NCBI GenBank assembly: GCA_020433835.1
Contig: JAGRBY010000012.1
Coordinates: forward strand, 1-32,747
Length of the DNA stretch: 32,747 bases
DNA from: Anaerolineae bacterium
GTDB taxonomy: Bacteria; Chloroflexota; Anaerolineae; 4572-78; J111
Direction: 5' to 3'
Under the pieces are notes generated by a model, which did not search any database, had not been told where the DNA came from, and saw only the letters and a program-made list of their open reading frames with translations. Made by a program: the position numbers and the translations under genes. Positions 2,246 to 14,074 of the stretch are shown here, piece by piece (position 1 is the first letter of the stretch; every line of letters begins with the position of its first letter).

Positions 2246-2263
2246 TTTTACTTCGTTTATTAG
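2246..2263 (+). repeat. Left 18-bp direct repeat (candidate attL core)
   Basis: TTTTACTTCGTTTATTAG, identical to 14057-14074. It lies in the intergenic region upstream of the aldolase gene, 58 bp before the end of the first element gene. It is not in a tRNA. The sequence just inside (AGTAATTTTTTAGAAC) differs from that just outside the right copy, as expected for attL/attR. Confidence 0.65.
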
Positions 2264-2287
2264 TAATTTTTTAGAACGAATGTTTCA

Positions 2288-2322
2288 GGGGTGCGGGTTG
2301 GTTTCGTACCCCGTTATTTTTT
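2288..2322 (+). terminator. Hairpin plus T-tract at the left end
   Basis: GGGGTGCG (2288-2295) pairs with CGTACCCC (2305-2312), 8 bp including one G-T wobble, followed on the plus strand by GTTATTTTTT. Read on the minus strand it sits directly after the XkdW-like gene but has an A-run rather than a T-run. It would therefore mainly insulate the element from plus-strand readthrough from the host side. Confidence 0.4.
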
Positions 2323-2887
2323 AATCAAAGTTTATGGATTGCTCTATAGCCTGAATTTCAGCCAACGTTTGGGCCGCATCAAGCGCATTTTCAATGCGAT
2401 CAAGTTCGGTCACAATGGCTGATATTCTCCCTTGGATGGTGCGCCAGCGGGTAAATAAGCTCTCTAGAGTATCGCGTAGGGGTAGTGCTCTCCGAGCGGC
2501 GATGGCTGCTGATATAACATATACATTAGCAGATGGGTTGGTTGGTCGTCCTGCCTGGGCGTAGTGGGTTATCTCTGTGTTGAGCATTATGGCCCGGACA
2601 TAGTTACCAGATATCAGATTGTCAATCTGGTTTTCGGCGTCCTGGGCTAGCTGCTGGGCGCGGCTCATAACAACGTTTTTTGCTCTGGTCAGAAGCGCAG
2701 CTTGAAACGCAGGGGATGAAATGTAAGTCTCAACCTGTTCAATCGTCGGCTGTGGATCGGGTAAATTCCAGGCAGTTATAACCGTGCTTGTTTCTCCGGT
2801 ATCGGGGTCTGGCACTTCCTCAATCACGAAATCAACCAGCGGTTGGGCGTTGTAGTAATGGGCAATGGCTAAGGCGATGTAGTTCAT
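2321..2887 (-). CDS. XkdW-like phage tail-associated protein
   Basis: A 188-aa protein. Its first 55 residues have the pattern of the phage XkdW-like / tail-fibre accessory N-terminal domain: a 'MNYIALAIAHYYNAQP' start, an acidic stretch, then 'ITAWNLPDPQPTIEQVETY'. The remainder is alpha-helical with coiled-coil character (residues about 80-188, rich in A, I, L, R, E). It starts 4 bp after the stop of the fibre gene, with AGGA about 11 nt upstream, and is the distal gene of the minus-strand virion operon. By position it may be a chaperone or accessory of the fibre. The XkdW resemblance is by eye and moderate. Confidence 0.6.
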   Translation of the reverse strand: MNYIALAIAHYYNAQPLVDFVIEEVPDPDTGETSTVITAWNLPDPQPTIEQVETYISSPAFQAALLTRAKNVVMSRAQQLAQDAENQIDNLISGNYVRAIMLNTEITHYAQAGRPTNPSANVYVISAAIAARRALPLRDTLESLFTRWRTIQGRISAIVTELDRIENALDAAQTLAEIQAIEQSINFD

Positions 2888-2891
2888 GCGG

Positions 2892-3908
2892 TTATATTCC
2901 TATTGTGGGGGTTGCCCCTAATCGTTCGACTTCAAGTAGTGACCTATCCAAAATGACCGTGCCACCCACATCACTATAAATCTGCAAATAAACATATTCA
3001 GTGCCGACCACCTCTATTGTTTTTTCAACGCTTACGGTAATCCTGCCGCCATTACTCAAAACATCTGATTGGCGAGTGAACCTACTAGGAATATCTTCAC
3101 TACCACCAACATTCAAACGGACTTGCAAGAGGTTACATGCTGATCCGGTATTGTTGTAGTAGTACACCTTTCCCACAACCCGGTAAACACCATCGTCAAG
3201 CATATTGATATTTGTATTATTGCTTGAAAATGCGTCATAACCACCCACGTCCTCATTTTTCGATCCGTTGGTATTGAAATTGACGACTGACCACCCCCCG
3301 CTCGATATGCTTTGATTACCACTACCGCGTATGCGATAGAAACCAACCAGACCAGCGAGCAGGGCATCAACCTCGCTTTCGGTGTAATAGCGGCTGTCGT
3401 GATTGTGGTTTGTGTCCGACTTACCAGCGAGCAGGGCATCAACCTCGGTTTCAGTGTAATAGCGGCTGTCGTGATTGTGGTTTGTGTCTGACTTACCAGC
3501 GAGCAACCCATCAACCTCAGTTTCGGTGTAATACCGGTCATCATGGTCGTGTCCAACGTCCGATTTACCCCCCAGCAGGGCATCAACCTCGCTTTCAGTG
3601 TAGTAAAGGTCATCGTGGTTATGTTCAGGCAAGCCACCCCAGTAGCCCAACTCATCCCAAGCAGTTACACCGTCACCCACCTTAAAAAGCTGCGTGTCTG
3701 TCTCCAAACCGATTTCACCAGCAGCCAAAACCGGGTTGCTAGCTGTCCAATTTACGGCCGTATCGCCGCGTGTTTGGACCGTGACCCCGTTGCCGTTGAT
3801 GGTTACGTACTGACTTTCCTTGTTGATGCCGTTGAGCATATCACGTAAGCGCCGCTCGGTGTAGAAATCACGCTGCAAGCAGGCTAAAAGCTTGTCGTAA
3901 TCGCTCAT
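2892..3908 (-). CDS. Tail-fibre / receptor-binding protein with 24-residue repeats
   Basis: A 338-aa modular fibre. Residues about 48-92 match the Mtd-type N-terminal module ('NPVLAAGEIGLETDTQLFKV', 'GDGVTAWDELGYW') common at the base of phage fibres. Residues 96-187 are four copies of a 24-residue unit of the form HxHDxxYYTExEVDxLLxGKSD, a known trimeric shaft-type repeat. Residues 188-338 form a beta-rich C-terminal head, presumably the receptor-binding tip. The ATG overlaps the stop of the upstream 591-aa gene (ATGA), implying translational coupling. This is the clearest evidence that the element encodes a particle that attaches to cells. The host receptor is unknown. Confidence 0.78.
   Translation of the reverse strand: MSDYDKLLACLQRDFYTERRLRDMLNGINKESQYVTINGNGVTVQTRGDTAVNWTASNPVLAAGEIGLETDTQLFKVGDGVTAWDELGYWGGLPEHNHDDLYYTESEVDALLGGKSDVGHDHDDRYYTETEVDGLLAGKSDTNHNHDSRYYTETEVDALLAGKSDTNHNHDSRYYTESEVDALLAGLVGFYRIRGSGNQSISSGGWSVVNFNTNGSKNEDVGGYDAFSSNNTNINMLDDGVYRVVGKVYYYNNTGSACNLLQVRLNVGGSEDIPSRFTRQSDVLSNGGRITVSVEKTIEVVGTEYVYLQIYSDVGGTVILDRSLLEVERLGATPTIGI
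3348..3623 (-). repeat. Four tandem ~72-bp units within the fibre gene
   Basis: The phrase CATCAACCTCG and the surrounding bases recur every 72 bp (e.g. at 3365, 3437, 3509, 3581), encoding the 24-residue shaft repeat. The two units nearest the C-terminal head are nearly identical in DNA, so copy number could change by recombination or slippage while staying in frame. Confidence 0.85.
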
Positions 3909-5680
3909 TCTGTGATCACCTTAACGCTATCTGTTTGGATGGTGGCATACTTCCCGAATGAGTTTGAGCCACGATAGTACTTAATTTGGATGTATCGAAC
4001 ATTTTGCATTGTTGCCAGGGGTATGATCCGTTCGTGCCAGTCTCCATCATCAAGATCACTGTTGTTCGTGTACGCTTCTCCACCACTTACCCAATCATCG
4101 TTTATATCCTCTTTGACGTTGACAGCGATTTTGTAAAACCTTCGGGTATAATCGGTGGGGCTGGTAACACGAATACGACAAACAACCTGGATAACATCAT
4201 TGTAAACCTGTCCAAAATCGGCGGCGATAACGGTAAATGTGTTGTTACCGGGGTCTTTGAGTTCCATGTACAGGTCATCTGGGGCAAGGAGCATATTATT
4301 TTGGTCGTAAATTAACGCAGGATCAGATGATCCTGGCGACAGATCTATATTGTCGATTGCTACCAAATAACCCTCACCGGAACCGCCAACACACTTATCA
4401 AGGGCATAATATGCTAGATCGACATCTTGGACAAAGAGTAAATCAAGTACGCCGTCACCATCAGTACGAGGCTTTATCAAAGCGTCCAGGGCTTGTAACA
4501 TCCAGCTTTTTGCATCTTCATCGGTTACGTTGGTTGTTATCCAATCTCTAAGGGGTTGAAGAGCCGTATAAGCTGCGGTGACATCGGATGCCGATGCGAT
4601 TGCAGATTGCAGGGTTGTATCATTGGCGTGGATGTATTGAGCAAAATCGTAAAATTCGGACATATCAGCCGTATGGACAAATAGCACAAATTCCGTGTAG
4701 GTGAATTCAGTCAGGGCGTTGAGGTAAGATTGATAGTTATAAGCGCGTTCCTTGATTTTGCGGGGTGTAGCAAGGTTATTTGATAGGTAGCGATATATGT
4801 CGGGTCGATCATTGTCAAACCAGTTGAAATTATACCAATAGCCACGTGTGGCATAAACCGCTTCCATCGCTACTGCAAGCTGATCAATGATGTACCAGGC
4901 CGCTTGACAACGCTCTTGACTTCCGGCTTGAATGTCTGCGTCTTGAGATACACCACCGCAACACACTGTTGTGATACCTGCCAGATAATCCTCATCGAAG
5001 GTCGGCCACACATCGGCTGTCCAGAAGAGAAGCCCAAGTAATTCACGTGGCATAAAGCCTAAAATGAGCGCTTCCTGCTCCGGGGTCAAGTCCGTTATCT
5101 GGTCATCGATAACATTCTGATATGCTTGTATCCCACCTTCAACCGTCGTTGCCCTGGATAGCTGACATATAATTTCACTCTGGTATACCCTGACTTTTGC
5201 TAAGGCATCTTGTAAAAGCGACTGCGTGATGAGTTCAGCATGAACCTGGGCTAGTGACGTGATCAGCGACGTAGCCATAGCATACGTCAAGAACGAAATC
5301 ACCGCGTCCGATGGATCGGGGCCGCCGATGAACAAGCCGAAAACACCTGCTACACCAGCAGCAGCTGGCTCCAAATAACCAGCCAACCACGGCACAGCGG
5401 CAATGATGTATTCCATATTTTGTATACCGCCCACGACAATTGAACCCTGGTACGTAGTTGCTAGCCATTCAAGCCAACCATCAGTCCAATCATACAGCCA
5501 AACAGATACTTTACACTGCCTATCCGATAAACCACTGGTAGGCGTAAAATAACCGCTTGGGGGGCCGCTGGGATCGTTCGGTCCACCTGATGGCCCAGGA
5601 GTGGTTGGCGTGGTTGGGGTAGGCGAACTAGTACTACCGCCACATCCACAATTTTTAATATTTATGGTAACATTACTCAT
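3905..5680 (-). CDS. Large putative virion protein with Cys-rich tip and Pro/Thr linker
   Basis: A 591-aa protein of no family I recognise. It opens with 'MSNVTINIKNCGCGG', then a Pro/Thr/Ser/Gly linker (about residues 16-45), a Trp-rich segment, a hydrophobic stretch (about 85-125), a long helical middle, a 'CCGG' motif near 245, and a beta-rich C-terminal region of about 140 residues that could be a carbohydrate-binding sandwich. The start at 5680 is chosen because GGAGG lies 9 nt upstream; the frame continues 19 codons further without support. It lies between the coiled-coil 213-aa gene and the fibre gene, and its stop overlaps the fibre start. A virion or host-attachment role is inference from context. 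Confidence 0.7.
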   Translation of the reverse strand: MSNVTINIKNCGCGGSTSSPTPTTPTTPGPSGGPNDPSGPPSGYFTPTSGLSDRQCKVSVWLYDWTDGWLEWLATTYQGSIVVGGIQNMEYIIAAVPWLAGYLEPAAAGVAGVFGLFIGGPDPSDAVISFLTYAMATSLITSLAQVHAELITQSLLQDALAKVRVYQSEIICQLSRATTVEGGIQAYQNVIDDQITDLTPEQEALILGFMPRELLGLLFWTADVWPTFDEDYLAGITTVCCGGVSQDADIQAGSQERCQAAWYIIDQLAVAMEAVYATRGYWYNFNWFDNDRPDIYRYLSNNLATPRKIKERAYNYQSYLNALTEFTYTEFVLFVHTADMSEFYDFAQYIHANDTTLQSAIASASDVTAAYTALQPLRDWITTNVTDEDAKSWMLQALDALIKPRTDGDGVLDLLFVQDVDLAYYALDKCVGGSGEGYLVAIDNIDLSPGSSDPALIYDQNNMLLAPDDLYMELKDPGNNTFTVIAADFGQVYNDVIQVVCRIRVTSPTDYTRRFYKIAVNVKEDINDDWVSGGEAYTNNSDLDDGDWHERIIPLATMQNVRYIQIKYYRGSNSFGKYATIQTDSVKVITE

Positions 5681-5863
5681 ATGTACAGACCTCCAAAAGA
5701 ACCAATTCAAAAACCAATAAATAGCAATACAGAGCAACCAAGCTTTGGTGAAAAGTTTATGGAAGCCGGAAAACGGGGCGCTGCAATTTTGTTCTGGATA
5801 CAGGTTGCAAAATGGATTTGGGACATGGTCTTTGATATCCTGATTGCAATTGCTTCGCGCTAA
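5681..5863 (+). CDS. Small plus-strand membrane protein wedged in the minus-strand operon
   Basis: A 60-aa reading frame with a Pro/Lys/Gln-rich N-terminus ('MYRPPKEPIQKPINSNTEQP') and a C-terminal hydrophobic, Trp-rich helix from about residue 35 ('AAILFWIQVAKWIWDMVFDI'). It fills the gap between two minus-strand genes exactly. Its ATG abuts, back to back, the ATG of the 591-aa gene, and its stop lies 17 bp before the stop of the 213-aa gene. The composition looks like a real holin-like or inhibitor peptide, and the minus strand here has no convincing gene. Against it: no Shine-Dalgarno sequence upstream and no obvious promoter. It could be leaderless or spurious. Confidence 0.45.
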   Translation: MYRPPKEPIQKPINSNTEQPSFGEKFMEAGKRGAAILFWIQVAKWIWDMVFDILIAIASR

Positions 5864-5880
5864 ACCGCCCCATTAACAGG

Positions 5881-6522
5881 CTAGCAATCCTCTTCATCGA
5901 TTGTGATCGTCTGTTCTTCCACGTCGCCACAATCACAATCCTCTTCATCACAGCAGCCGTTTATGTTGTTGACGTTGATAACCGTTTGAGCTTCTTTGAT
6001 GGCCGCTGCAATAACTTGCAAGTGCCTTTCAACGTCTGTTGTGTCGATATTGGTCACGCTCGACAATTCCAGCGCAGTGATCGCGGTTTCGATGTCGGTT
6101 AATTTTTGCTCCACACCGGACATATCGATATCGACATTGGTCACGCTCGACAATTCCAGGTCAGCAACCACAGCGGTTAATTCCCTGATCGCGGCTGCCT
6201 GGTCTATGGCTGCGTCTATAAATGCTTGTAAATCACATCCGCTCAAAAGCGTAGCCTCCAATTCTTCCACGAAATCTGTGATATCTTGCCAGGTTTGTTG
6301 TGTTGCCGCGTCCCAACCTGAGCGAGGCGAGGACAAGCCCCATACCCAGTGATATTTTGGAAACACCGCACACATCTCCCGTAACAGTGATAATTGACGG
6401 TGATCCAGGGCCAGCAGATAGCAAGAACCGGGATCGTCCAAAAAAATAGCGTGAAACTGTTTGCCGGGGTGAAATGTGTAATTTTCCCTATCACGCGATT
6501 TGTCATACTTGGGGTTTGACAT
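5881..6522 (-). CDS. Putative virion coiled-coil protein with acidic Cys-rich tail
   Basis: A 213-aa protein, family not recognised. The N-terminal ~90 residues look globular (Trp/Tyr-rich, 'KYHWVWGLSSPRSGW'). Residues about 100-180 are helical and contain two copies of 'LELSSVTN(V/I)D', suggesting an oligomeric stalk. The C-terminus is very acidic with a cysteine cluster ('GCCDEEDCDCGD') ending in 'DEEDC'. The ATG has GAGG about 5-8 nt upstream. It precedes the 591-aa gene in the virion-like cluster. The Cys cluster after an 'INVNNI' strand echoes the 'INIKNCGCGG' start of the 591-aa protein, hinting at interlocking ends. Confidence 0.62.
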   Translation of the reverse strand: MSNPKYDKSRDRENYTFHPGKQFHAIFLDDPGSCYLLALDHRQLSLLREMCAVFPKYHWVWGLSSPRSGWDAATQQTWQDITDFVEELEATLLSGCDLQAFIDAAIDQAAAIRELTAVVADLELSSVTNVDIDMSGVEQKLTDIETAITALELSSVTNIDTTDVERHLQVIAAAIKEAQTVINVNNINGCCDEEDCDCGDVEEQTITIDEEDC

Positions 6523-6550
6523 CGATCCTCAGATTTGACACAATATTTAA

Positions 6551-6568
6551 AATGCCCATATGGGCATT
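6551..6568. promoter_or_regulatory. Perfect 18-bp palindrome
   Basis: AATGCCCATATGGGCATT is perfectly self-complementary with no spacer, in the 85-bp gap between the 71-aa and 213-aa genes. Transcribed on the minus strand it is followed by TTTTAAAT, so it may act as an operator or as a weak terminator. A second 7-bp hairpin (6590-6596/6600-6606) lies next to it. Confidence 0.45.
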
Positions 6569-6607
6569 CGATTACCCTATCAATTCCTCTTGCTATGCTA
6601 TAGCAAC

Positions 6608-6823
6608 TTAAGGGCCGGTTAGTTCCTCGATGGCCGCTGTTAAAAAGTCCTCAGCTTCCGACCATTCACTATCACTCAATGGCTCAATGCCCTGCTGCCA
6701 GTTCTCGCGCTCCTCTGCTTTAATCAGGGCCGCCAGACACATGGCAATAGTAGCCGGAGACAATACCCGGATTACGGGGGTTGTTGGTTCATTGCGAAGT
6801 TGATCAAGATAAAAAGTTGGCAT
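6608..6823 (-). CDS. Small hypothetical protein
   Basis: 71 aa from the ATG at 6823 (MPTFYLDQL...), predicted mostly helical with an acidic C-terminus. A TTG 24 nt upstream would extend it into the terminator hairpin and is unlikely. No clear Shine-Dalgarno sequence is visible, because the start lies immediately after the U-tract of the terminator behind the 163-aa gene. Translation may depend on readthrough. The size and position (right after the putative major structural gene) recall small head-completion proteins, but no similarity is recognised. Confidence 0.5.
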   Translation of the reverse strand: MPTFYLDQLRNEPTTPVIRVLSPATIAMCLAALIKAEERENWQQGIEPLSDSEWSEAEDFLTAAIEELTGP

Positions 6824-6860
6824 AATAAAAAACAGGGGGAAGCACAAACGCTTTCCCCCT
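6824..6860 (-). terminator. Strong rho-independent terminator behind the 163-aa gene
   Basis: On the minus strand AGGGGGAAAGC (6860-6850) pairs with GCTTCCCCCT (6843-6834) around a 6-nt loop with one bulged A, followed by GTTTTTTATT. It lies 20 bp past the stop of the 163-aa gene. Strong termination there would make the 163-aa message the most abundant, with partial readthrough into the downstream virion genes. Confidence 0.82.
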
Positions 6861-6879
6861 TGCTATTTAAATTTTGTGA

Positions 6880-7371
6880 TTAACGGTTAACCTTGCCGGT
6901 TACCTTGTCATCTTCGTGCCAGGTTTCAGAAATTTCCTGACCATCAGACACATAGAAAGAGCCAGCAACGTTAGCAATACCCGCGCCATCGTCGAACCAT
7001 TCCAGAAATGCTTTAAGATCGGCATTAGCACCATTGACGTTATAACCGCTTTTGAGGGCTGCTTTAAGGGCCGGTAGGTTGAATGTGTAATAGCGACCAT
7101 CGCCTAATTTGACTTTAACGGATGCGGTTTCCGCCACGCTGGAATTGGTCTCGGCTGCGATTGCGGTGAAGGCTGTGCTGCGACGCGTGATCAGCAAGTC
7201 AACCACGGTTAATTGTGTGATTGCTTGCAAGTCATCAGCCAACGAAACACAATCAGCGTCAAGGATACCCGATTTCATTTCAAATTTCTTGGTGGTTTGC
7301 AAACCGTTAGCGTCTTCCAGAACGACGGTGCAATACCCAGCCGGTAAGGTTCCTGCTGGTCTGTCTGCCAT
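6880..7371 (-). CDS. Putative abundant virion (coat-like) protein
   Basis: 163 aa with no family I can name. It begins 'MADRPAGTLPAGYCTVVLED', is predominantly beta with Ala/Thr-rich segments ('DGRYYTFNLPALKAALKSG') and ends 'DDKVTGKVNR'. It has the best expression signals of the element: a TTGTCA-N17-TACAAT promoter, AAGGAG 7 nt before the ATG and its own strong terminator. A monocistronic, highly expressed small beta-rich protein upstream of fibre genes suggests a major structural protein. This is inference from context only; a secreted or immunity protein is an alternative. Confidence 0.65.
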   Translation of the reverse strand: MADRPAGTLPAGYCTVVLEDANGLQTTKKFEMKSGILDADCVSLADDLQAITQLTVVDLLITRRSTAFTAIAAETNSSVAETASVKVKLGDGRYYTFNLPALKAALKSGYNVNGANADLKAFLEWFDDGAGIANVAGSFYVSDGQEISETWHEDDKVTGKVNR

Positions 7372-7412
7372 GATAAAACTCCTTATTTACTAATAATAGG
7401 TTGGTTGATATG

Positions 7413-7458
7413 GAACGTACGTTCTAAAAATTGTACCAAGAGTTTGCAGGCATGACAA
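7413..7458 (-). promoter_or_regulatory. Promoter and GAAC-N4-GTTC operator of the 163-aa gene
   Basis: On the minus strand, TTGTCA (7458-7453), 17 bp, TACAAT (7435-7430, preceded by TGG), then the perfect palindrome GAACGTACGTTC (7413-7424) beginning about six bases after the -10 box, i.e. at the likely start site. This is a classic repressor position. The half-site pattern matches the GAAC-N4-GTTC core of Bacillus/actinobacterial LexA boxes. Confidence 0.7.
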
Positions 7459-7473
7459 TTGGAACCACCAAAT

Positions 7474-7752
7474 CTACGAAAACCAGCCAGATAGCCAACC
7501 AATTAGCAGGGCCGTGCTTATACCGGTAATGATTTTGAAGGCCCACATTCCTATGGCGTCGTGATCCTCAAGCGTGTCGAGGCGCTTTTCAAGGTCTTGT
7601 ATGCCCTCGGAAAGCGATGCTACCTGTAAGCGCAGCGTATCAAAGCGGGTTTTGTCAACCTGGTTGGTTGATATTGCATTCATTTCTTTCTCCAATGCCC
7701 TGAATTGAACTTCCAGAAATTCCTTTAGTGAGATGCGTTCGGTTTCGCTCAT
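7474..7752 (-). CDS. Coiled-coil protein with C-terminal TM helix (XhlA/holin-like architecture)
   Basis: 92 aa. Residues about 5-65 are a heptad-rich coiled coil ('LEVQFRALEKEMNAI', 'LSEGIQDLEKRLDTLEDHD'). Residues about 70-90 form one membrane helix ('FKIITGISTALLIGWLSGWF') ending in Trp-Phe-Ser. This order matches XhlA/haemolysin-type lysis accessory proteins and phage membrane anchors, so a lysis or membrane-docking role is plausible but not proven. The ATG has AGGA about 8 nt upstream. It lies between the 163-aa gene and the small-RNA/hicBA region, downstream of a terminator-like hairpin at 7863-7890. Confidence 0.6.
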   Translation of the reverse strand: MSETERISLKEFLEVQFRALEKEMNAISTNQVDKTRFDTLRLQVASLSEGIQDLEKRLDTLEDHDAIGMWAFKIITGISTALLIGWLSGWFS

Positions 7753-7854
7753 AATCCAGTCCTATAGCTCAAGTGTTCTAATATGGATTTTAGCCGATTT
7801 CAGCCGATATAGGTACTGTTGGTTATTTTTTTAGGTTAAAAGGCTTAGAGGGGC

Positions 7855-7890
7855 AAAATAAAAGCCCGTTGTTTGGGTGAACAACGAGCT
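7855..7890 (-). terminator. Rho-independent terminator downstream of hicBA
   Basis: On the minus strand AGC-T-CGTTGTT (7890-7880) pairs with AACAACG-G-GCT (7873-7863), with one internal mismatch, a hexanucleotide loop, and TTTTATTTT after it. It would end both the hicBA transcript and the shorter transcript starting near 7938. Confidence 0.7.
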
Positions 7891-7938: not shown

Positions 7939-7944
7939 GAATTT

Positions 7945-8211: not shown

Positions 8212-8474
8212 CAGGCAGGTACTAGCCCGTGAATGGGTACGATCATTTCAAGGTTGTTATCCTCAGATGGTTGTTGTAACGCTGCCGGTCTAGCCTCGCC
8301 GCGACTGTCGAGATAGCTCACTAAGGTCTCTATCGCGTCTTGGACATTCAGCACGATTTCACGTAGATCGTGACCGTAAGTGAATATCTCAGGCACATCA
8401 GGGCTGGTCACCGTATAAAACTGGCTGCCCTCATCCCACTCCACATTTAACCGAATTCGATATGTCGTTGCCAT
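8211..8474 (-). CDS. hicB: HicB-family antitoxin
   Basis: 87 aa from the ATG at 8474, which follows GAGGGG. It shows the degenerate RNase-H-like HicB fold: 'YRIRLNVEWDEGSQFYTVTS', 'PDVPEIFTYGHDLREIVLNV', 'QDAIETLVSYL'. The C-terminus is a short tail, with no recognisable ribbon-helix-helix or HTH domain, so autoregulation by this protein alone is doubtful. The operator-like palindrome upstream may bind another repressor. It is co-transcribed with hicA from TTGTTG-N17-TAAAAT at 8538-8510. Confidence 0.85.
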   Translation of the reverse strand: MATTYRIRLNVEWDEGSQFYTVTSPDVPEIFTYGHDLREIVLNVQDAIETLVSYLDSRGEARPAALQQPSEDNNLEMIVPIHGLVPA

Positions 8475-8509
8475 TGTTTTTCCCCTCGGCTTTGTATGAT
8501 TTGCCTGTA

Positions 8510-8538
8510 ATTTTACACCAAACGGCAATGCACAACAA
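8510..8538 (-). promoter_or_regulatory. hicBA promoter
   Basis: On the minus strand TTGTTG (8538-8533), 17 bp, TAAAAT (8515-8510, preceded by TG). Operator copy 3 (GAAC-N4-GTTC, 8542-8553) lies 3 bp upstream of the -35 box. Confidence 0.5.
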
Positions 8539-8773: not shown

Positions 8774-9046
8774 ATGTCCACAAACTTTTCTGTAAATGGT
8801 ACTAACGTACCAACGCACCTGAAACGTATGCACGCTAATGGTGCTAATGCAACAAAACGCCCCAGCGATGAGATCGACATTATGATCGCCTCGCTAACCC
8901 ACATCATTAAAATTTCCCCTGATCCCGACATTGCAGAGTATTACCGAGGCGCACTGACAGCCCTGCTGTGGGTGCGGCATCCCCTGTCCTACATCGAAGC
9001 CGGTCAAATGGCTAAGGAATTGATTAGGGGGTATCGCAATGTCTAA
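8774..9046 (+). CDS. First early-operon protein, unknown
   Basis: 90 aa, not recognised. The N-terminal 30 residues are polar (Asn/Thr/Lys-rich, 'MSTNFSVNGTNVPTHLKRMH') and the rest is helical ('DEIDIMIASLTHIIKISP', 'GQMAKELIRGY'). The ATG directly follows the helix-C segment of the structured leader, with AAGGA 9 nt upstream, so its translation is the one most exposed to that switch. It overlaps the next gene by 8 bp. Being first in the early operon, it could be a regulator or host-takeover protein; there is no sequence evidence for either. Confidence 0.65.
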   Translation: MSTNFSVNGTNVPTHLKRMHANGANATKRPSDEIDIMIASLTHIIKISPDPDIAEYYRGALTALLWVRHPLSYIEAGQMAKELIRGYRNV

Positions 9047-9374
9047 TTCTAATGCCCACAAGAAATTTATGGAATGGTTATCCTCTCAAGATGTAACCCT
9101 ATATGACTGGCAAAAATTAGCCGTAAACTCCATATACAGCCTGAGCGAAAAAGACGTCTGTGAACTGGTTTCTGCCTTAGCCGAATATGACAAATGGGGT
9201 GATGACTACACTCCAAACGAATTCGTTCACGAATACGGTATTGAACTTAATAGAAAGCAGGCAGAGATAGCAGATCACATCACCAGCCAAAAGCAATGCA
9301 CTGGAAAGACGGTTTTAATCAACTTGCTTTACCGCTACGTCTCCGAAGAAATAGAGGGGTGTAATGATGTCTAA
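9039..9374 (+). CDS. Hypothetical protein with helicase-like fragments
   Basis: 111 aa. 'YDWQKLAV' and 'ELNRKQAEIADHI' resemble Q-motif regions of helicases and terminases, and 'QKQCTGKTVLINLLYRY' resembles a Walker A motif, but the first glycine is absent and the protein ends soon after, so it cannot be a complete ATPase. It may be a shortened relic or an unrelated helical protein. GGGGG precedes its ATG, and it overlaps both neighbours (8 bp upstream, 11 bp downstream), consistent with coupled translation in the early operon. Confidence 0.6.
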   Translation: MSNSNAHKKFMEWLSSQDVTLYDWQKLAVNSIYSLSEKDVCELVSALAEYDKWGDDYTPNEFVHEYGIELNRKQAEIADHITSQKQCTGKTVLINLLYRYVSEEIEGCNDV

Positions 9375-9597
9375 ACGCAAACTAATCACACATTTTGAAC
9401 AGCAGGCCAACAATGCCATTGACGCGCTGTTCAACTGGCGCTCTCTGCTGCGCACGTGGCAAAACGATCCCCGCCTCATTCCCGATGATATGTTTATGGC
9501 CCATCTCGATGATTTAGCCGAAGTCGGTTTGCTCGAATTTGTTGACGGGTCCGATCTAGATCGTCTCCGCGAGTTAATGACCGGTCAGGAGGTGTAA
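9364..9597 (+). CDS. Small hypothetical early protein
   Basis: 77 aa (76 if the second ATG at 9367 is used), helical: 'KLITHFEQQANNAIDALFNW', then an acidic C-terminal half ('HLDDLAEVGLLEFVDGSDLD'). GAGGGG lies upstream. It overlaps the preceding gene by 11 bp and its stop shares one base with the next ATG. No family recognised; position suggests an accessory replication or anti-host factor. Confidence 0.6.
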   Translation: MMSKRKLITHFEQQANNAIDALFNWRSLLRTWQNDPRLIPDDMFMAHLDDLAEVGLLEFVDGSDLDRLRELMTGQEV

Positions 9598-10082
9598 TGA
9601 TGTCGCCTGAGCAAGAAACCGGATTGATTGGTGAACGCTGGGTTATAAAAGAGCTAAGGCGACGCGGGTACAAACCAGAAATTGACCCCGACTTTTTCAC
9701 AAAAAACTGTGATTTACGAGTGAATGGGCTGCCGATAGAAGTTAAGTACGCAAGGCCAACAACCCGCAAGCAGATTAGCACCAGCGGCAACGCCATATAC
9801 TTGACGCGCTGGCAATGGTCGATATCTGCAACCGCTGCTGAAATGCGCGGTGAGTGGGTTTGTATCCTGCTGGCCCAGACAGCCAAAAAGATTGTGCCTT
9901 ATGTGGTCCCAGGCTCTCAAATTGGCGAGCGGTCACACATCCAAATTACCAGTCACCCCGACAAATACAAGGGCTGGTTGAACCGGTATCGTAACGCCTG
10001 GGACGTGATCGACTACTTAAGCCAGTCAACCTATCTCGATGATGGGCCAACATACGAACAGTGGTCAAGGGTTGCAGCATGA
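9597..10082 (+). CDS. PD-(D/E)XK-fold endonuclease / resolvase-like protein
   Basis: 161 aa with the signature of the restriction-endonuclease-like fold. 'GLIGERWVIKELRRRGYKPE' supplies the N-terminal helix with a conserved glutamate. 'NCDLRVNGLPIEVKYARP' supplies the D...E-x-K metal-binding site (Asp in CDL, Glu and Lys in IEVK). Phage proteins of this shape act as Holliday-junction resolvases or recombination endonucleases. GGAGG precedes the tandem ATGs at 9597/9600. It is translationally linked to both neighbours in the early operon and presumably processes replication or recombination intermediates. Confidence 0.72.
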   Translation: MMSPEQETGLIGERWVIKELRRRGYKPEIDPDFFTKNCDLRVNGLPIEVKYARPTTRKQISTSGNAIYLTRWQWSISATAAEMRGEWVCILLAQTAKKIVPYVVPGSQIGERSHIQITSHPDKYKGWLNRYRNAWDVIDYLSQSTYLDDGPTYEQWSRVAA

Positions 10083-10324
10083 AACGGTCGATAACTGTAT
10101 CATCACAATTTGACACGGTTCATGTAACTGTAACCCGAAGCATCCATACAAAAAAGGGGGTCATGATGAACATGCGCCAATATCACCCCAAACGATCTAG
10201 CCTATTCCGTATTGAGCATATTCTCCACGGGAAAACACCGGTCTATCTACGCCTGACAAGAACAGGGGTAACCATCCTTTACGACGTGTCAAAAAATGGG
10301 GGGGGTAATGGGTCGCCGCGCTAA
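10079..10324 (+). CDS. Small basic hypothetical protein
   Basis: 81 aa from the ATG at 10079, which overlaps the upstream stop (ATGA); a GTG at 10061 would add six residues. It is strongly basic ('NMRQYHPKRSSLFRIEHIL', 'RLTRTGVTI') and ends in a Gly-rich tail encoded by an eight-G run that also serves as the ribosome-binding region of the next gene. Length variation of that G run would alter only this tail. Possibly a nucleic-acid-binding protein; no family recognised. Confidence 0.55.
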   Translation: MKRSITVSSQFDTVHVTVTRSIHTKKGVMMNMRQYHPKRSSLFRIEHILHGKTPVYLRLTRTGVTILYDVSKNGGGNGSPR

Positions 10325-11510
10325 ATCAGACAAATCACAATCAGAACTCATACAGGATGATTTGAAACAACTTGGCTACGATTTCAGGATAAACGATCTT
10401 GATGATGGGTTGGAATTTAGCTCAGTATCAATGGGGGGTAAGTGGCTCAGGCTCACAGACGTCTTTGAAGCCGTAATACGCACACAGTTACGTGATCAGG
10501 GCTACGGCAAAAAGGGCAAGCCCGGACTGGCAGCCGTTAGAGACACAATAACCACTTGGGCCAACCGTAACCGCTACAACCCCATAAAATCCTACTTTGA
10601 AACGCTGGCCAGCAAATATCAGCCCGTTGAAAGCGGTGCTTATGAAATCCCATCCATAGCCGTTTACTTTGAAAATCCGGACGGGATGTTCAAAGACTGG
10701 TTGTTCAAATGGATGGTGGGATCGATTGCCAAGCTTTTCGATGGGCAGCGAAACCCCATGCTCGTGCTGGTTGGTCCCCAAAATATGGGTAAGTCATTTT
10801 TCACAGAATGGCTATGCCCTGTTAAGGGTCACTTTCTGCGAGACAGTATCAACCCCGATGATAAGGACAGCCATATCCGGTTGACCGATGTTTTCTTGTG
10901 GGAAGTTGAAGAGCTTGGAGCGACAACCCGCCGCGCTGATATCGAGAGCCTGAAAGCCTTCATCACCCGCGATGAAGTAAAAAAGCGGCCAGCCTATGGG
11001 CGGCATAGGGTAGACAAGCCTGCTACGTGCAGCTTTATAGGTACGGTTAACCATGATGGGGCTGGTTTCCTGAATGACCCAACAGGCTCCACGCGCTTTT
11101 TGTCCTGTGAGATAAACGCTATCAACTTCGACTACAGCAAAGACGTGGACGTTAACAAGCTGTGGTCAGAGGCGTTTTGGTATTACAAGCATGTTCCAGG
11201 CTCATGGAAGTTGGATGAATGGCAGCGAGCCAAGCGCAATGAGATAAACGCGCTGTATGAGGTGCCCAGCGCCCTGGCTGATGTTATCAGCGACCTGTAC
11301 GAAGTCACTGGCAGCGGTCAAGACTTCGTTGCAACCCAGGAAATCAGGAGTGCAATAGATCTCCATTACAAAGTCAGCAACGAACAGCTATTCTACCGTG
11401 AGCTTAAGCGGGTTATGAAAAGGCTCGAAGTACAGGACGCCAGGGGGTCATATTCCAATGGTGATGAGCACCGGAGAGGGTATAAAGGCATAAAAAGACG
11501 AAGTATTTAA
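10308..11510 (+). CDS. VirE-family (PF05272-like) SF3-type helicase / replication protein
   Basis: 400 aa from the ATG at 10308. Walker A is 'GPQNMGKS' (residues 156-163) and Walker B lies in 'LWEVEELG' (197-204), followed by 'SLKAFITRDEVKKRPAYGR', 'GTVNHD' (sensor-1 Asn at 248) and 'LNDPTGSTRFLSCEI' with the arginine finger. This is the classic order of virulence-associated-E ATPases that act as helicases with a primase in phages, satellites and plasmids. The residues before 120 have no recognised primase motif; the separate CHC2-like gene may supply primase function. It is followed by an iteron-like array. It is the strongest replication gene of the element. Confidence 0.9.
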   Translation: MGRRAKSDKSQSELIQDDLKQLGYDFRINDLDDGLEFSSVSMGGKWLRLTDVFEAVIRTQLRDQGYGKKGKPGLAAVRDTITTWANRNRYNPIKSYFETLASKYQPVESGAYEIPSIAVYFENPDGMFKDWLFKWMVGSIAKLFDGQRNPMLVLVGPQNMGKSFFTEWLCPVKGHFLRDSINPDDKDSHIRLTDVFLWEVEELGATTRRADIESLKAFITRDEVKKRPAYGRHRVDKPATCSFIGTVNHDGAGFLNDPTGSTRFLSCEINAINFDYSKDVDVNKLWSEAFWYYKHVPGSWKLDEWQRAKRNEINALYEVPSALADVISDLYEVTGSGQDFVATQEIRSAIDLHYKVSNEQLFYRELKRVMKRLEVQDARGSYSNGDEHRRGYKGIKRRSI

Positions 11511-11519
11511 AAAGTTTGC

Positions 11520-11650
11520 TGGCATGCCGGTTTTGGTGGCATGAAGCGGCTTTTTCTGGTAAGTGCCGGCATGCGCTGGCATGGAAAAATGACAAGAAAA
11601 TAGGCGTCAGGGCTGCTAAGGGGGTTCATGCCAGCATGCCACTCATGCCA
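11520..11650. repeat. Iteron-like TGGCATG array, candidate replication origin
   Basis: TGGCATG occurs at 11520, 11537 and 11577 (with CGGCATG at 11567), and the inverse CATGCCA at 11627, 11635 and 11644: seven heptamers in 131 bp arranged as two opposing groups. The array starts 10 bp after the VirE gene stop. The surrounding 11511-11849 contains no convincing gene; the reading frames there have unnatural composition. An origin bound by the helicase or its loader is the natural reading. Confidence 0.55.
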
Positions 11651-11733
11651 CCAATTTTTAAACATTTCTTGGCATTTGCACCTTTTCAACAAAAAAGGCT
11701 CGAAAAATGGGGTTTTTGGTGGCTTATTTTGAC

Positions 11734-11756
11734 AGCCACTTACCCCCCATTGATAC
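11734..11756 (-). repeat. 23-bp inverted copy of a VirE-gene segment
   Basis: The reverse complement of 11734-11756 is identical to 10425-10447 inside the VirE gene (encoding 'VSMGGKW'), and the similarity continues imperfectly on the TTTAG-CTC side. The 13-bp core ACCCCCCATTGAT recurs at 11821-11833. It may be a protein-binding site or a relic of an inverted duplication. Confidence 0.6.
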
Positions 11757-11777
11757 CGAGCCTAAACCAACAAATAA

Positions 11778-11807
11778 AAAAAGCGCCCGGTAAACCGAAC
11801 GCTTTTT
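11778..11807 (+). terminator. Terminator/attenuator between helicase and zinc-finger genes
   Basis: AAAAAGCG (11778-11785) pairs with CGCTTTTT (11800-11807), with an inner CGGT/ACCG helix and an internal CC/AA mismatch, giving a T5 end. It may separate replication from downstream modification genes. It is nearly symmetric and could act in both directions. Confidence 0.5.
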
Positions 11808-11849
11808 CAGGGGCCAAATGACCCCCCATTGATGATAGGAGTATATCAC

Positions 11850-12146
11850 ATGTCGAAAGTCATTGCAATAAAAAACACGATTAAGATCGCGCCGTTTGTG
11901 GCACCTTACACGCTGGGGTTGAGACAGGGCCGCAATGAGCGATATTTCACCGGTTGGTGTCCGTTTCATCAGCCCAGCAAAGGGTTAAGGCGTCAATTCT
12001 GGGTGGATAGTCGTATGGGACTTTGTAACTGCTTCAATCCCCGCTGTGCTGCCCCCCTGCCTATGGATGTAATCAATTTCTACGCCCGTGTGAAGGGTAT
12101 TGCCTTACACGAAGCGATTGAGGAATTATGGGAGCAAGTGAAATGA
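11850..12146 (+). CDS. CHC2-type zinc-finger (primase-like) protein
   Basis: 98 aa from the ATG at 11850, which has AGGAG 9 nt upstream. 'FTGWCPFHQPSKGLRRQFWV' followed by 'LCNCFNPRCAAPLPMDVINF' gives the C-x2-H...C-x-C/x4-C zinc pattern of DnaG-type primase fingers, and 'DVINFYARVKGIALHEAIEE' matches the helix that follows in CHC2 domains. There is no TOPRIM or polymerase domain, so it is a stand-alone finger that probably cooperates with the VirE-type helicase for primer synthesis or template recognition. It overlaps the next start by 4 bp (ATGA). Confidence 0.75.
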   Translation: MSKVIAIKNTIKIAPFVAPYTLGLRQGRNERYFTGWCPFHQPSKGLRRQFWVDSRMGLCNCFNPRCAAPLPMDVINFYARVKGIALHEAIEELWEQVK

Positions 12147-12352
12147 GTAAGAGAAAAGCGATAATGGAATTTTTGGGCAAAGCAACAAATTCTTTTTACG
12201 TGTTTTGCTATAGGTGCAATGAATGGAGATCCTTGAGGGAATTAGTCAAAAACGTTTATGACAGCGGTGACGATCTTGCTTATTGTCCTGTTTGCAAGAG
12301 CTTGCTTTTTAGGGTTAATAGATGGGATAAGGAGACAGACAGTAATGATTGA
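12143..12352 (+). CDS. Small zinc-ribbon protein
   Basis: 69 aa from the ATG at 12143, which overlaps the upstream stop. Two CxxC pairs, 'FCYRCNEW' and 'YCPVCKS', 31 residues apart, make a zinc ribbon. The N-terminus is basic ('MSKRKAIMEFLGK') and similar in style to another start in the early operon (MSKRKL...). Likely nucleic-acid or protein binding; no precise family. It overlaps the next gene by 8 bp. Confidence 0.65.
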   Translation: MSKRKAIMEFLGKATNSFYVFCYRCNEWRSLRELVKNVYDSGDDLAYCPVCKSLLFRVNRWDKETDSND

Positions 12353-12926
12353 GAACGCCTACACTGACAAAATGCTAATGACCTTGCCTAATAAGCAGGT
12401 TGTAGAAGTAGAATTTTCGTTTCTGGTTGATGCTCATCGAGCGGCGATTGTGATCCGTGGCCCACATTTGATCTACTTGGAGATAAGAGCGCACCGGGAT
12501 GCAATGCTTGAAATGCTGGCCGAGGGTGCGAAACGCTTTGAACCGGTAACGGTATCAAAGGCTGCTGCCAGGGCAATGTCAATGCCGGATGAAATGGGCG
12601 ACCCTGAAACCGCATGGCCCTGGCTCTTGCGGAACATGCCTTGGATTTTCAAGGGCATTGACGTTAAACGCGAGCCATATGCCCATTATCTTGAGAAATC
12701 GCCGCAAATGGGGCAAAATGCGTCCCTGCTGGCCGATGTGAAAGCAGTTAGACACCTTGGACCTGATCCCAGCCTGGCAGACATTAGCGAGGTTTTGACA
12801 GGCAGCCGGCAGTATGGTGGGTCGGTCTACAAACGGGTAAAAGAGGTTAAAGAGCTGCTCGAAACTACTACTACTACTACCGAACAAGGGCGTGTAGTGC
12901 CGTTTGAAGAGAGAAAGGCAGCGTAG
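12345..12926 (+). CDS. Hypothetical early protein with Thr repeat near the C-terminus
   Basis: 193 aa from the ATG at 12345 (AAGGAG upstream); a longer frame from 12258 lacks a ribosome site. The N-terminal half is mixed alpha/beta ('VVEVEFSFLVDAHRAAIVIR'). The C-terminal half has a possible winged-helix-like stretch ('LADISEVLTGSRQYGGSVYKRVKEVKELL', quoted in part) suggesting DNA binding. Near the end an ACT repeat encodes a run of six threonines. It stops 1 bp before the methyltransferase ATG. No family is recognised; with its neighbours it may help modify or protect element DNA. Confidence 0.6.
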   Translation: MIENAYTDKMLMTLPNKQVVEVEFSFLVDAHRAAIVIRGPHLIYLEIRAHRDAMLEMLAEGAKRFEPVTVSKAAARAMSMPDEMGDPETAWPWLLRNMPWIFKGIDVKREPYAHYLEKSPQMGQNASLLADVKAVRHLGPDPSLADISEVLTGSRQYGGSVYKRVKEVKELLETTTTTTEQGRVVPFEERKAA

Positions 12927-12945
12927 TATGAGTAGTAGTAGTAGT
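12864..12945. repeat. Complementary triplet arrays, (ACT)n and (AGT)5, across the methylase start
   Basis: ACT repeats run from 12864 to 12880 at the end of one gene and AGT repeats from 12931 to 12945 at the start of the next. They are complementary over 15 bp, so the mRNA can form a hairpin that encloses the ribosome-binding site and places the methylase ATG (12928-12930) at the base of the stem. Confidence 0.8.
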
Positions 12946-13773
12946 TTTTTTGTGACAGGACCAGTGCAAAAATGTGTGACGTATCGAGGGCGGTTAGTCC
13001 TGTCTTTGTTCCCAGGCATTGGGCTTTTGGACCGTGCCTTTGAGGAATTAGGGTTTTGTGTTGTCCGTGGACCTGACTTGTTATGGGGCGGTGACATACG
13101 CCAATTTCACCCACCAGGTAATCTGTTTTGGGGGATTATAGGCGGTTCGCCGTGCCAAGAATTCAGCGGGTTAAGACGACTTCCGCCTACCGGTTACGGG
13201 ATAGAAATGCTGTCAGAATTCCTCCGGACGGTCACAGAAGCACAGCCCGAATGGTGGTTACTGGAGAACGTTGCCAGGGTTCCCAGCGTGACTGAGCTGA
13301 GCAGCAAGTTTTCTATCGAGGTCGGTCACACCTACGTTACCCAGCGCTTTGAAATTGATCAGGGATGGTACTGCAAAACGCGCCGGCTGCGTCACATTCA
13401 GTTTGGCAGCAAGTCTGGTCGGCTGTTAAATGTGTCTCGGCGACCGCTGAATTTAAATTGTGACCCAGCAGCCACGGCCAACGATGATCGCTCATTTCGA
13501 GAGCTGTGCAGGCTACAAGGGTTACCTGATGATTTTGACCTGCCTTTCAAGGTTTCAGACAAAAAACGGGTTGTAGGAAACGGAGTACCGTTGCAAATGG
13601 GTCGTGTCCTTGCGGTCGCAGTTTTGGAAACGTTCAGCAGCTCGGTCACAGATAACCAATCACGCTGCAAATGTGGCTGTGGTAGAATTGTGACTGGCCG
13701 GCGAAAGTATTCAGGTGCAGCCTGTAGGAAACGTGCCCAGAGAAAGCGTGACTTGGACAGGCAAGAAATTTAA
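12928..13773 (+). CDS. Orphan C5-cytosine DNA methyltransferase with C-terminal zinc finger
   Basis: 281 aa. Motif I 'LSLFPGIGLLDRAF', motif IV 'GGSPCQEFSG' with the catalytic Cys, motif VI 'LLENV', motif VIII-like 'KTRRLRHIQFG', 'RELCRLQGLPDDF' (IX region) and motif X 'VVGNGVPLQMGRVLA' are all present, so it should be active. The variable region is short. A C-terminal 'CKCGCGRIVTGRRKY...ACRKRAQRKR' finger may help DNA targeting. No cognate restriction enzyme is nearby, so it probably protects element DNA from host restriction. The N-terminus is a Ser-5 run from an AGT repeat that can pair with the upstream ACT repeat. Confidence 0.9.
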   Translation: MSSSSSFFVTGPVQKCVTYRGRLVLSLFPGIGLLDRAFEELGFCVVRGPDLLWGGDIRQFHPPGNLFWGIIGGSPCQEFSGLRRLPPTGYGIEMLSEFLRTVTEAQPEWWLLENVARVPSVTELSSKFSIEVGHTYVTQRFEIDQGWYCKTRRLRHIQFGSKSGRLLNVSRRPLNLNCDPAATANDDRSFRELCRLQGLPDDFDLPFKVSDKKRVVGNGVPLQMGRVLAVAVLETFSSSVTDNQSRCKCGCGRIVTGRRKYSGAACRKRAQRKRDLDRQEI

Positions 13774-13813
13774 TTTTCGTATAGTATACAACCCAGGCCA
13801 AAAAGGGGATACC

Positions 13814-14038
13814 GTGAAGAAGAAGCCAAAGCCAAAATACTACTTAAGGCGGTCATTTAACTATGACGACTGGTTCTGTATCTGTCAGGTGAGCAATAAT
13901 GTTATGGTTGCAGAGATACCGGAAAAGGTGGTTGCTGAATTGGTTTTGGACTTCCTAAACGACCTACCCAGGGGGATGATAGAACGGGCTAAGGTTGGGG
14001 TTATCTATAAACACATCAAGAAAAATAAACCGAAGTAA
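13814..14038 (+). CDS. Small hypothetical protein at the right end
   Basis: 74 aa from a GTG at 13814 with AAGGGG upstream; the open frame extends further 5' into the methylase end without a start signal. Basic at both ends ('VKKKPKPKYYLRRSF' and 'YKHIKKNKPK') with a hydrophobic middle ('VVAELVLDFLNDLPRGMIER'). It is the last gene of the early operon and its 3' end forms one arm of the hairpin with the right repeat. Given its basic nature and position next to the att site, a DNA-binding role (for instance in excision) is conceivable but unsupported by similarity. Confidence 0.55.
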   Translation: MKKKPKPKYYLRRSFNYDDWFCICQVSNNVMVAEIPEKVVAELVLDFLNDLPRGMIERAKVGVIYKHIKKNKPK

Positions 14039-14074
14039 AGCTTTTTTTTGAAATCATTTTACTTCGTTTATTAG
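14024..14074 (+). promoter_or_regulatory. Hairpin formed by the right repeat and an inverted copy (candidate folded att / terminator)
   Basis: AATAAAC-C-GAAGTAAA (14024-14039) pairs with TTTACTTCGTTTATT (14058-14072), 15 bp with one bulged C and an 18-nt loop containing T8. The left arm spans the stop codon of the last gene and the right arm is the att-core repeat. It may terminate the early operon, and could also make a double-stranded att site from single-stranded DNA. Confidence 0.55.
14057..14074 (+). repeat. Right 18-bp direct repeat (candidate attR core)
   Basis: TTTTACTTCGTTTATTAG, identical to 2246-2263. The bases beyond it (AGATTACCCG...) lead into the 3' end of the P450 gene, 35 bp away. 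Confidence 0.65.

Follow-up and report, generated by a model that had tools for sequence, protein, structure and literature searches.

The closest described counterparts of the element reported here are the Vibrio IMEX phages VGJ-phi, CTX-phi and TLC-phi, which, as described in parts of PMC4246890 and PMC5357621, have no integrase of their own and use dif-like sites, as this element does. According to the same parts, the exchange of VGJ-phi rests on XerC, with no homology on the XerD side, and the second arm of TLC-phi is degenerate. These Vibrio elements, from gammaproteobacteria, are either filamentous ssDNA phages or satellites, whereas ours belongs to Chloroflexota, encodes a VapE helicase together with a fibre of tail type, and shows no second P-loop ATPase motif. 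Near it in size are NO16, of the proposed Asemoviridae, and other tailless Vibrio prophages, which are non-tailed and span roughly 10–15 kb; portions of PMC9966536 and PMC11630473 propose dif-like sites for NO16 and report that the tailless prophages are missed by prophage tools. Their capsid protein is a double jelly-roll, and NO16 also has a packaging ATPase; neither feature was recognised in our element. LME-1 of Legionella, as presented in part of PMC9765430, is likewise phage-like and entered dif by means of a short identical att, after which one dif site is altered, but differs in its host, its 22-bp att and its single XerL system.

The window, that is, the whole stretch of DNA analysed, comprises 32,747 nt of an Anaerolineae bacterium (Chloroflexota; GCA_020433835.1, contig JAGRBY010000012.1, forward strand). 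An 11.8-kb virus-like block at 2246–14074 is flanked by exact 18-bp direct repeats and consists of two divergent arms, one leftward (2321–8528) and one rightward (8774–14038), whose frames are open and overlapping or closely spaced; an earlier note made from the letters alone had described the repeats, the arms and the frames in these terms, and all three descriptions hold. We read the block, with modest confidence, as an integrated, apparently intact small temperate virus-like replicon of Anaerolineae that is Xer-integrated and carries an adsorption arm. Its features are as follows.

2246–2263, forward: left copy of the 18-bp direct repeat, TTTTACTTCGTTTATTAG, exact
2250–2277, forward: attL, dif-like, with a good left arm ACTTCGTTTAT, centre TAGTAA and a degenerate right arm TTTTTTAGAAC, the element-derived half
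2321–2887, reverse: 188-aa XkdW-like or tail-fibre-assembly-like protein (PF09636, E 4e-8; PHROG 8746, E 2.8e-4)
2892–3908, reverse: 338-aa fibre with an Mtd_N domain (PF18454, E 1.6e-13) and 24-aa (72-nt) repeats
3905–5680, reverse: 591-aa adsorption-type protein with a Cys/Gly N-terminal motif, a helical middle and a C-terminal galactose-binding/CBM32-like sandwich
5881–6522, reverse: 213-aa protein, internally repetitive and rich in Cys at its C-terminus, no family match above cut-off
6608–6823, reverse: small ORF of low confidence (79 aa in the ORF list, which starts it at a TTG at 6847)
6880–7371, reverse: 163-aa conserved protein with 32 homologues, leading coat candidate (AF2 pLDDT 92.6)
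7474–7752, reverse: 92-aa coiled coil with a C-terminal hydrophobic stretch (hydropathy), weakly holin-like or scaffold-like
7999–8211, reverse: HicA-like toxin of a toxin-antitoxin pair (PF07927, E 1.5e-18)
8211–8528, reverse: HicB-like antitoxin (PF15919, E 4.2e-6; PHROG 497)
8774–9597, forward: three small early ORFs of 90, 111 and 77 aa, from the ORF list
9597–10082, forward: 161-aa protein, PD-(D/E)XK-nuclease-like by eye only
10296–11510, forward: 404-aa VapE-like helicase (PF05272, E 8.1e-35)
11829–12146, forward: 105-aa stand-alone, primase-type CHC2 zinc finger (PF01807, E 5.7e-7)
12258–12926, forward: 222-aa protein without assigned function, scanned also from 12348 (192 aa)
12904–13773, forward: 289-aa orphan C5 cytosine methylase (PF00145, E 3.1e-15)
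13715–14038, forward: 107-aa basic protein from the ORF list, the last ORF before attR
14057–14074, forward: right copy of the 18-bp direct repeat, TTTTACTTCGTTTATTAG, exact
14061–14088, forward: attR, a dif-like 11-6-11 site, ACTTCGTTTAT-TAGAGA-TTACCCGAAAT, with a host-derived right arm

The Pfam matches listed bear out the four phage-type genes named in the earlier note (Mtd_N fibre, helicase, CHC2 finger and C5 methylase). Its statement that integrase, portal, terminase and recognisable capsid genes are missing is also confirmed, as scans of 20 proteins taken as genes (a few extra ORFs, such as 11516–11821, were left out) against Pfam and PHROGs gave none above the curated cut-offs and no recombinase family. 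Thus the terminase, portal and HK97-type capsid of Caudoviricetes and the integrase of P4- or PICI-type satellites were all lacking among the scanned proteins, and the lack of an own integrase agrees with IMEX. A strict Walker-A scan of the six frames found a single motif, inside the VapE-like helicase, leaving no packaging ATPase of Tectiliviricetes type; with the family scans, it likewise yielded no Zot/pI-type ATPase of the kind that marks Inoviridae. The 161-aa protein matched no family, and nothing useful in the PDB.

The 18-bp pair is the only exact direct repeat of at least 18 bp in the window with copies more than 600 bp apart, and no repeated 18-mer arose in 300 Markov-1 shuffles of the window, so a chance origin of the end repeats is not expected. 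The possibility, raised in the earlier note, that they are chance copies is contradicted by these shuffles and by the overlap with dif-like sites. The note was right about the exact bounds and missed the dif-like nature of the repeats, each of which is part of a longer dif-like site: the repeat spans the left arm of an 11-6-11 Xer site plus three bases of its centre, all identical at attL and attR.

The attR site scored 22.3 bits with a matrix built from eight sites of related genomes, the next unrelated window position scoring 5.9. These eight were chosen by us, as the nearest to the ACTTCG...CGAAAT form, from 14 distinct sites obtained by reading part of the loci of 37 pattern hits. Because they were hand-picked, the ranking was repeated with all 14, all 37 and the three synteny-placed sites, and attR came first each time (with the last, 22.0 against 11.7 bits); removing the site of one relative, G001, from the eight-site matrix gave 19.2 against 9.4 bits. 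The attL site scored 3.4 bits (rank 14 of 65,440). Its poor second arm is expected for an IMEX and equally for a weak site. The attR site is also the sole place in the window within three mismatches of a dif-like pattern, with 0.13 expected window-wide, the pattern having been drawn up after attR and the 18-mer matches had been seen. In the related genomes, 37 forward hits of this pattern compare with 29 of its control, suggesting that many of the 37 are background, and the 18-mer (up to two mismatches) matched 5 of 25 genomes, no richer than the reversed-pattern control. The exact 28-bp attR had no match in IMG/VR.

A search of related genomes for an unoccupied site gave a partial answer. In G001 the single 18-mer hit (up to two mismatches) is an unoccupied dif-like site without the element. 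It adjoins a P450-like gene that is orthologous to the one on the right in the window, with 80.4% identity over 638 bp. The site's left neighbour is unlike that of the window and the spacing to the P450-like gene is off by about 450 bp; the G001 site is therefore common to one side only. A longer prophage extending rightward is disfavoured, since the P450-like gene occurs in G001 without the element. In G001, G112 and G208 a dif-like site lies upstream of the same HAD-hydrolase-like gene, and these sites are read as chromosomal dif; the arm in G001, ACTTCGTTTAC, equals that of the repeat at 10 of 11 bases. A TIGR02225 (XerD-family) match was present in all five relative genomes tested at 292–305 bits, below the curated cut-off of 329.6, with the control positive in 7 of 14 known genomes.

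The rank of attR, the shared arm and the G001 site agree with insertion at a dif-like site common to both junctions, and from this anatomy and comparison the element is very probably Xer-integrated and IMEX-like. The insertion site looks like one used to untangle chromosomes, and the host's own enzyme probably carried out the insertion. The host Xer recombinase would join the element's dif-like site to a chromosomal one at the common left arm and the three centre bases next to it. Of the two resulting junctions, the host-derived attR would be a good site and the element-derived attL a degenerate one, the pattern seen in IMEX. The missing integrase would then be explained by the dif-like nature of the repeats, the element being proposed to mimic the host dif site and use the host Xer. 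Judging from their families, the VapE-like helicase and CHC2 finger may carry out replication.

The element is one of a group of small elements that has drawn little notice. For its helicase, 282 homologues were found; among the best 120 listed, which include the window's own, all 119 others (45–82% identity) lie on contigs of ≤12,542 bp. Seven exact contig sizes in bp link relatives of the 163- and 591-aa proteins to those of the helicase or to each other (shifted control mean 0.36, maximum 3, in 582 shifts); this linkage rests on equal sizes of the relatives' contigs and suggests small replicons. As exceptions, the contig is 490,890 bp long for one 163-aa relative and 18,235 bp for one 591-aa relative. 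Genomes of the group are probably about 8–12.5 kb and mostly extrachromosomal. The small-contig helicase relatives and the seven common sizes uphold the earlier suggestion of an undescribed group, which is unnamed in the family libraries used, and more than 100 such helicase relatives point to a sizeable one. A literature search found no description of this element, which does not prove its absence from print.

Sequence searches of IMG/VR and a phage collection returned no relative of the 163-aa or 591-aa protein, and a single helicase query returned none in IMG/VR. A helicase alignment query found 15 IMG/VR loci at 24–39% identity; among the three at 38–39%, the terminase and portal scan covered L012, which has both, and L014, which has a portal, with L013 left out. 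In Chloroflexota genomes, the helicase matched 2 of 400 at E 1e-30 (G001:C473 and G981:C57), and in the 20 kb around these matches no other element protein was matched at E 0.01. Relatives of the 163-aa protein were found in 0/8, 0/396, 0/25, 0/400 and 0/396 genomes, counts that show rarity at most because the samples overlap, few candidates were scored and there was no positive control: the two 396-genome samples are largely the same (with the same 19 genomes listed after the centre), the 25- and 400-genome samples overlap them, and in the 396-, 400- and 396-genome searches many listed genomes had only nine candidates scored. Seventy pattern stretches in genome contigs likewise held no relative of the 163-aa family.

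The leftward arm would supply an adsorption apparatus made up of the 591-aa protein, whose carbohydrate-binding tip would be exchangeable, and of the Mtd_N fibre with the XkdW-like protein as partner. The 591-aa protein has 11 relatives besides itself, whose alignment keeps the core while the C-terminus differs, and its predicted structure and fold search give a helical protein with a C-terminal carbohydrate-binding-like sandwich. The Mtd_N stretch of the fibre also matches PHROG 697, a family of the head-and-packaging category (E 1.4e-13). Two matches fell below their cut-offs: Potyvirus coat in the 213-aa protein (E 0.0013, 18.8 bits where the cut-off is 27) and Phage_scaffold in the 92-aa protein (E 0.0026, 18.2 bits where it is 35).

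The coat question reduces first to one protein, the 163-aa one. In the alignment of relatives it is conserved along its whole length; it is modelled with confidence as alpha/beta, and fold searches of the PDB returned nothing convincing. The earlier note had called it a small beta-rich protein; the model is alpha/beta and not beta alone. The jelly-roll coat that the note had hoped for was not seen, and no coat fold was recognised in either the 163-aa or the 591-aa model. Against PHROGs the 163-aa family gave only weak matches, in the best of which (E 7e-4) 2 of 33 members hit an unnamed family. Its model matched the unnamed BFVD entries A0A345BPF5, A0A345N1Y2 and A0A345N5L4 at E <0.001 (TM 0.74/0.71, 0.69/0.68 and 0.51/0.50), despite about 20% identity, and A0A345MV62 more weakly (E 0.01, TM 0.45/0.43); the accession next after the latter, A0A345MV63, was weakly matched by the 591-aa model (E 4.8e-4, TM 0.12/0.14). 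This accession block may be that of the circular-DNA-virus survey PMC7000223. A literature search on six A0A345 fold-match accessions found no paper, and the modelled kinship is a lead only. The 163-aa protein is possibly, and as its best candidate, the coat of a tailless particle built without a recognisable packaging ATPase; it could instead be another structural or a non-structural protein. More speculatively, the group might be an overlooked large lineage of autonomous tailless, Xer-integrating Chloroflexota DNA viruses of about 8–12.5 kb, with a new alpha/beta 163-aa coat, no packaging ATPase, tail-type fibres and exchangeable carbohydrate-binding spikes. If particles form, Chloroflexota would gain a virus group with an unrecognised coat.

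The main rival to such a coat and an autonomous particle is helper dependence: a satellite that replicates and integrates itself, is packaged in the capsid of a helper phage and sets its host range through its own fibre and adsorption proteins. P4- and PICI-type satellites are of similar size, with a primase-helicase module and incomplete head genes, all as in this element, and they carry integrases, whereas none was found here and no helper-hijacking gene was recognised. The absence of a recognised capsid, portal, terminase or packaging ATPase fits a satellite, as do the tailed-phage type of the fibre, XkdW-like and Mtd_N parts and the precedent of TLC-phi, presented in part of PMC4246890 as an Xer-integrated satellite with a replication module and no virion genes. 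We nevertheless consider a satellite rather unlikely, though a serious contender. Satellites usually have few virion genes as well as an integrase, but here seven leftward ORFs besides hicA-hicB look virion- or adsorption-related, the 163- and 591-aa proteins are conserved in relatives, the 163-aa family has only the weak PHROG matches given above, and no helper was seen. If these are satellites, a capsid-less element can retain its own adsorption machinery; under either reading, such elements may be discoverable via dif-like sites rather than integrases.

It is improbable that the locus is a plasmid-like mobile element which has no virion stage and whose borrowed phage fibre genes serve for surface adhesion or for killing. 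Plasmids often carry HicA/HicB pairs, orphan methylases and Xer sites, and particles are unproven; yet the fibre, the XkdW-like protein, the coiled coil with its hydrophobic end and the two conserved proteins of 163 and 591 aa are all encoded in one arm, Pfam scans of the element gave no relaxase or partition family, and the 163-aa protein had no match in a plasmid collection at E 1. Least probable of all is a tailed-prophage remnant bounded by a fortuitous repeat, for although its fibre, XkdW and Mtd_N families are those of tailed phages and its distant helicase relatives include L012 and L014, the frames are open, the repeats are non-chance and coincide with a dif-like site, the helicases among the 119 listed are on small contigs, and the P450-like gene past the right repeat is present in G001 without the element, all in line with the earlier suggestion that this may not be a degraded tailed prophage.

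The 18-bp direct repeat was found in two exact copies, and it is the only exact direct repeat of at least 18 bp in the window with copies more than 600 bp apart; a repeated 18-mer occurred in none of 300 Markov-1 shuffles. The block between the copies is made of one leftward and one rightward arm, with open and tightly packed frames, which bears out the identical bounding repeats and the divergent, intact arms described in the earlier note. The features are as follows:

2246..2263, first copy of the 18-bp direct repeat
2250..2277, attL, element-derived half
2321..8528, minus strand, leftward arm
3905..5680, minus strand, 591-aa protein
5881..6522, minus strand, 213-aa protein
6880..7371, minus strand, 163-aa protein
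7474..7752, minus strand, 92-aa protein
8774..14038, plus strand, rightward arm
10296..11510, plus strand, VapE-like helicase of 404 aa
14057..14074, second copy of the 18-bp direct repeat
14061..14088, attR, with the host-derived right arm

Pfam and PHROGs named an Mtd_N fibre, an XkdW-like tail protein, HicA and HicB in the element, and a VapE-like helicase, a CHC2 finger and a C5 methylase in the rightward arm, so that the fibre, VirE-family helicase, finger and methylase recognised earlier by inspection were confirmed. Integrase, terminase, portal and capsid families were above the curated cut-off in 0 of the 20 scanned proteins, in agreement with the claim that no such recognisable gene is present. 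NCBIfam, applied to 10 of the 20 proteins, added matches that all fell below its cut-offs, including dnaG and dcm, and a six-frame scan detected a single strict Walker-A motif, in VapE. Sub-threshold matches of the 213-aa protein to Potyvirus coat (E 0.0013) and of the 92-aa protein to Phage_scaffold (E 0.0026) are treated as chance or coiled-coil similarity. The group to which the element belongs is unnamed in every family library used.

Among 25 genomes of the order of the related genome G001, the 18-mer with at most two mismatches matched in five, which is not above the reversed-pattern control. The one match in G001 belongs to an 11-6-11 site, ACTTCGTTTAC-TGGCAT-TTATGCGAAAT, which attR resembles (ACTTCGTTTAT-TAGAGA-TTACCCGAAAT). 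A dif-like search pattern, designed after attR and the 18-mer matches were known, gave 37 forward matches in 15 of the 25 genomes against 29 in the control, and many of its matches are therefore background; in the window, attR is the sole position within three mismatches of the pattern (0.13 expected per window). With a matrix of eight sites, hand-picked by us out of 14, position 14061 came out top among 65,440 (22.3 bits, with 5.9 for the next unrelated position), and did so again without the G001 sites (19.2 vs 9.4). Because this selection was our own, the ranking was redone with other site sets, and attR was top with all 14 sites (18.6 vs 5.3), all 37 pattern matches (16.1 vs 9.7), three synteny-placed sites alone (22.0 vs 11.7) and two synteny-placed sites with G001 left out (15.5 vs 12.8).

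Contig C472 of G001 carries a dif-like site and, after it in the same orientation, the orthologue of the P450-like gene in the window; no element separates the two, and CGAAATAAAA stands after the site in both G001 and the window. To the left, G001 has a short-chain-dehydrogenase-like gene where the window has the aldolase, and the distance from site to P450-like gene differs by ~450 bp, which makes the C472 site a one-sided empty site: the single unoccupied site sought in relatives was obtained with its right gene, but not with its left neighbour. Another such site precedes one and the same HAD-hydrolase-like gene by ~160–300 bp in G001 and two other related genomes, G112 and G208 (L052:9910, L054:7251 and L059:10001), with a peptidase-like gene next after it in two of the three and ~3 kb further in the third; both genes were named by eye, and their homology across genomes comes from blastn. 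Judged from sequence, this site would be the chromosomal dif of this Chloroflexota order. The presumed dif arms vary by genome (TTTAC in G001, CATAA in G112 and G208), and the G001 arm ACTTCGTTTAC is identical to the arm of the window's repeat at 10 of 11 bases. G112 has another site, with centre GTCAGA, in common with the related genome G326. TIGR02225 (XerD) matched at 292–305 bits in all five genomes tested, below its curated cut-off of 329.6. On contig C489 of G001, a dif-like site lies directly behind a gene resembling a tyrosine recombinase by eye (L053:6890-7942), and the two may belong to a further mobile element located at a Xer site.

The two junctions are identical over 18 bp, which take in the left arm plus the three centre bases next to it, and they diverge from there on; attR has both arms intact, and the right arm of attL is degenerate. 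This anatomy suggests a Xer-type exchange, which would occur at the common left arm and the adjoining three centre bases. Excerpts of PMC4246890 and PMC5357621 describe VGJ-phi integration as relying on XerC, with no homology on the XerD side of the centre, and degenerate second arms in TLC-phi and the gonococcal island; the window's junctions are like the VGJ-phi/TLC-phi pattern, and are comparable to the one intact and one altered site of LME-1 of Legionella (excerpt of PMC9765430). Presumed use of Xer at a dif-like site would explain why the gene set is free of an integrase.

Homologues numbered 32 for the 163-aa protein, 11 besides itself for the 591-aa protein and 282 for the helicase, of which 120 were listed (119 without the window's own). 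For all 119 listed helicase relatives the contig is 12,542 bp long or shorter; 48 lie on at least 8 kb and 13 on at least 10 kb, and contig sizes peak at 2–4 kb and 8–10 kb. Contigs of identical size were shared by helicase and 163-aa relatives (9450, 9535, 3770), helicase and 591-aa relatives (10463, 10581) and 163- and 591-aa relatives (10475, 7119), and two more pairs are one base apart. These seven coincidences, where shifted controls (n = 582) averaged 0.36 and never exceeded 3, suggest that the two arms move as a unit on small contigs. Exceptions are a 163-aa relative in an Anaerolineales MAG, whose contig measures 490,890 bp, and a 591-aa relative on an 18,235-bp contig. Sequence searches of IMG/VR and phages gave no relatives of the 163- and 591-aa proteins beyond partial matches (30–31%, E 0.03 to 3), and none of the 163-aa family was found in plasmids, GTDB contigs and genome samples. 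The closest IMG/VR helicases have 38–39% identity and come from contigs of 19–33 kb; terminase and portal genes are both present on L012, and a portal gene on L014. The element and tailed phages thus have a distantly related helicase module in common.

We interpret the element as a small, virus-like replicon of Chloroflexota, probably circular, resembling the integrative mobile elements exploiting Xer (IMEX) and presumably having a role in adsorption. The repeats, the anatomy of the site, the one-sided empty site and the relatives on small contigs are seen in the sequences themselves; Xer catalysis, the circular replicon and the adsorption role are inferred. Two readings are to be taken seriously, a tailless virus that is autonomous and a satellite that brings its own fibres, and the 163-aa protein is an unproven candidate coat. 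The fibre gene contains 72-nt tandem repeats (3279–3623) encoding 24-residue repeats, whose copy number may vary and change the fibre length. At its Cys-rich end (NINGCCDEEDCDC), the 213-aa protein is similar to the motif NIKNCGCGG at the N-terminus of the 591-aa protein, and these motifs may serve to bind a partner or a metal. The hicA-hicB cassette lies between exact 26-bp direct repeats (7953–7978 and 8535–8560), each with the palindrome ATAGAAC-AAGA-GTTCTAT inside it; these repeats are either copies of an operator or marks left when the cassette was inserted.

As for the host neighbourhood, in which gene names were assigned by eye, the aldolase-like protein encoded on the left side of the element has 88% identity to one from Anaerolineae MAG HKST-UBA12 that lies in G001, and the P450-like gene to the right has 80.4% identity over 638 bp to its G001 counterpart. 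A low-GC stretch (~38–43%; 14109–19284) right of the element carries P450-like, sulfotransferase-like and glycosyltransferase-like genes and is probably a separate acquired island. Two similar 143-aa SnoaL/NTF2-like proteins (27021–27452 and 29483–29914), apparent paralogues, enclose a substrate-binding-protein-like gene.
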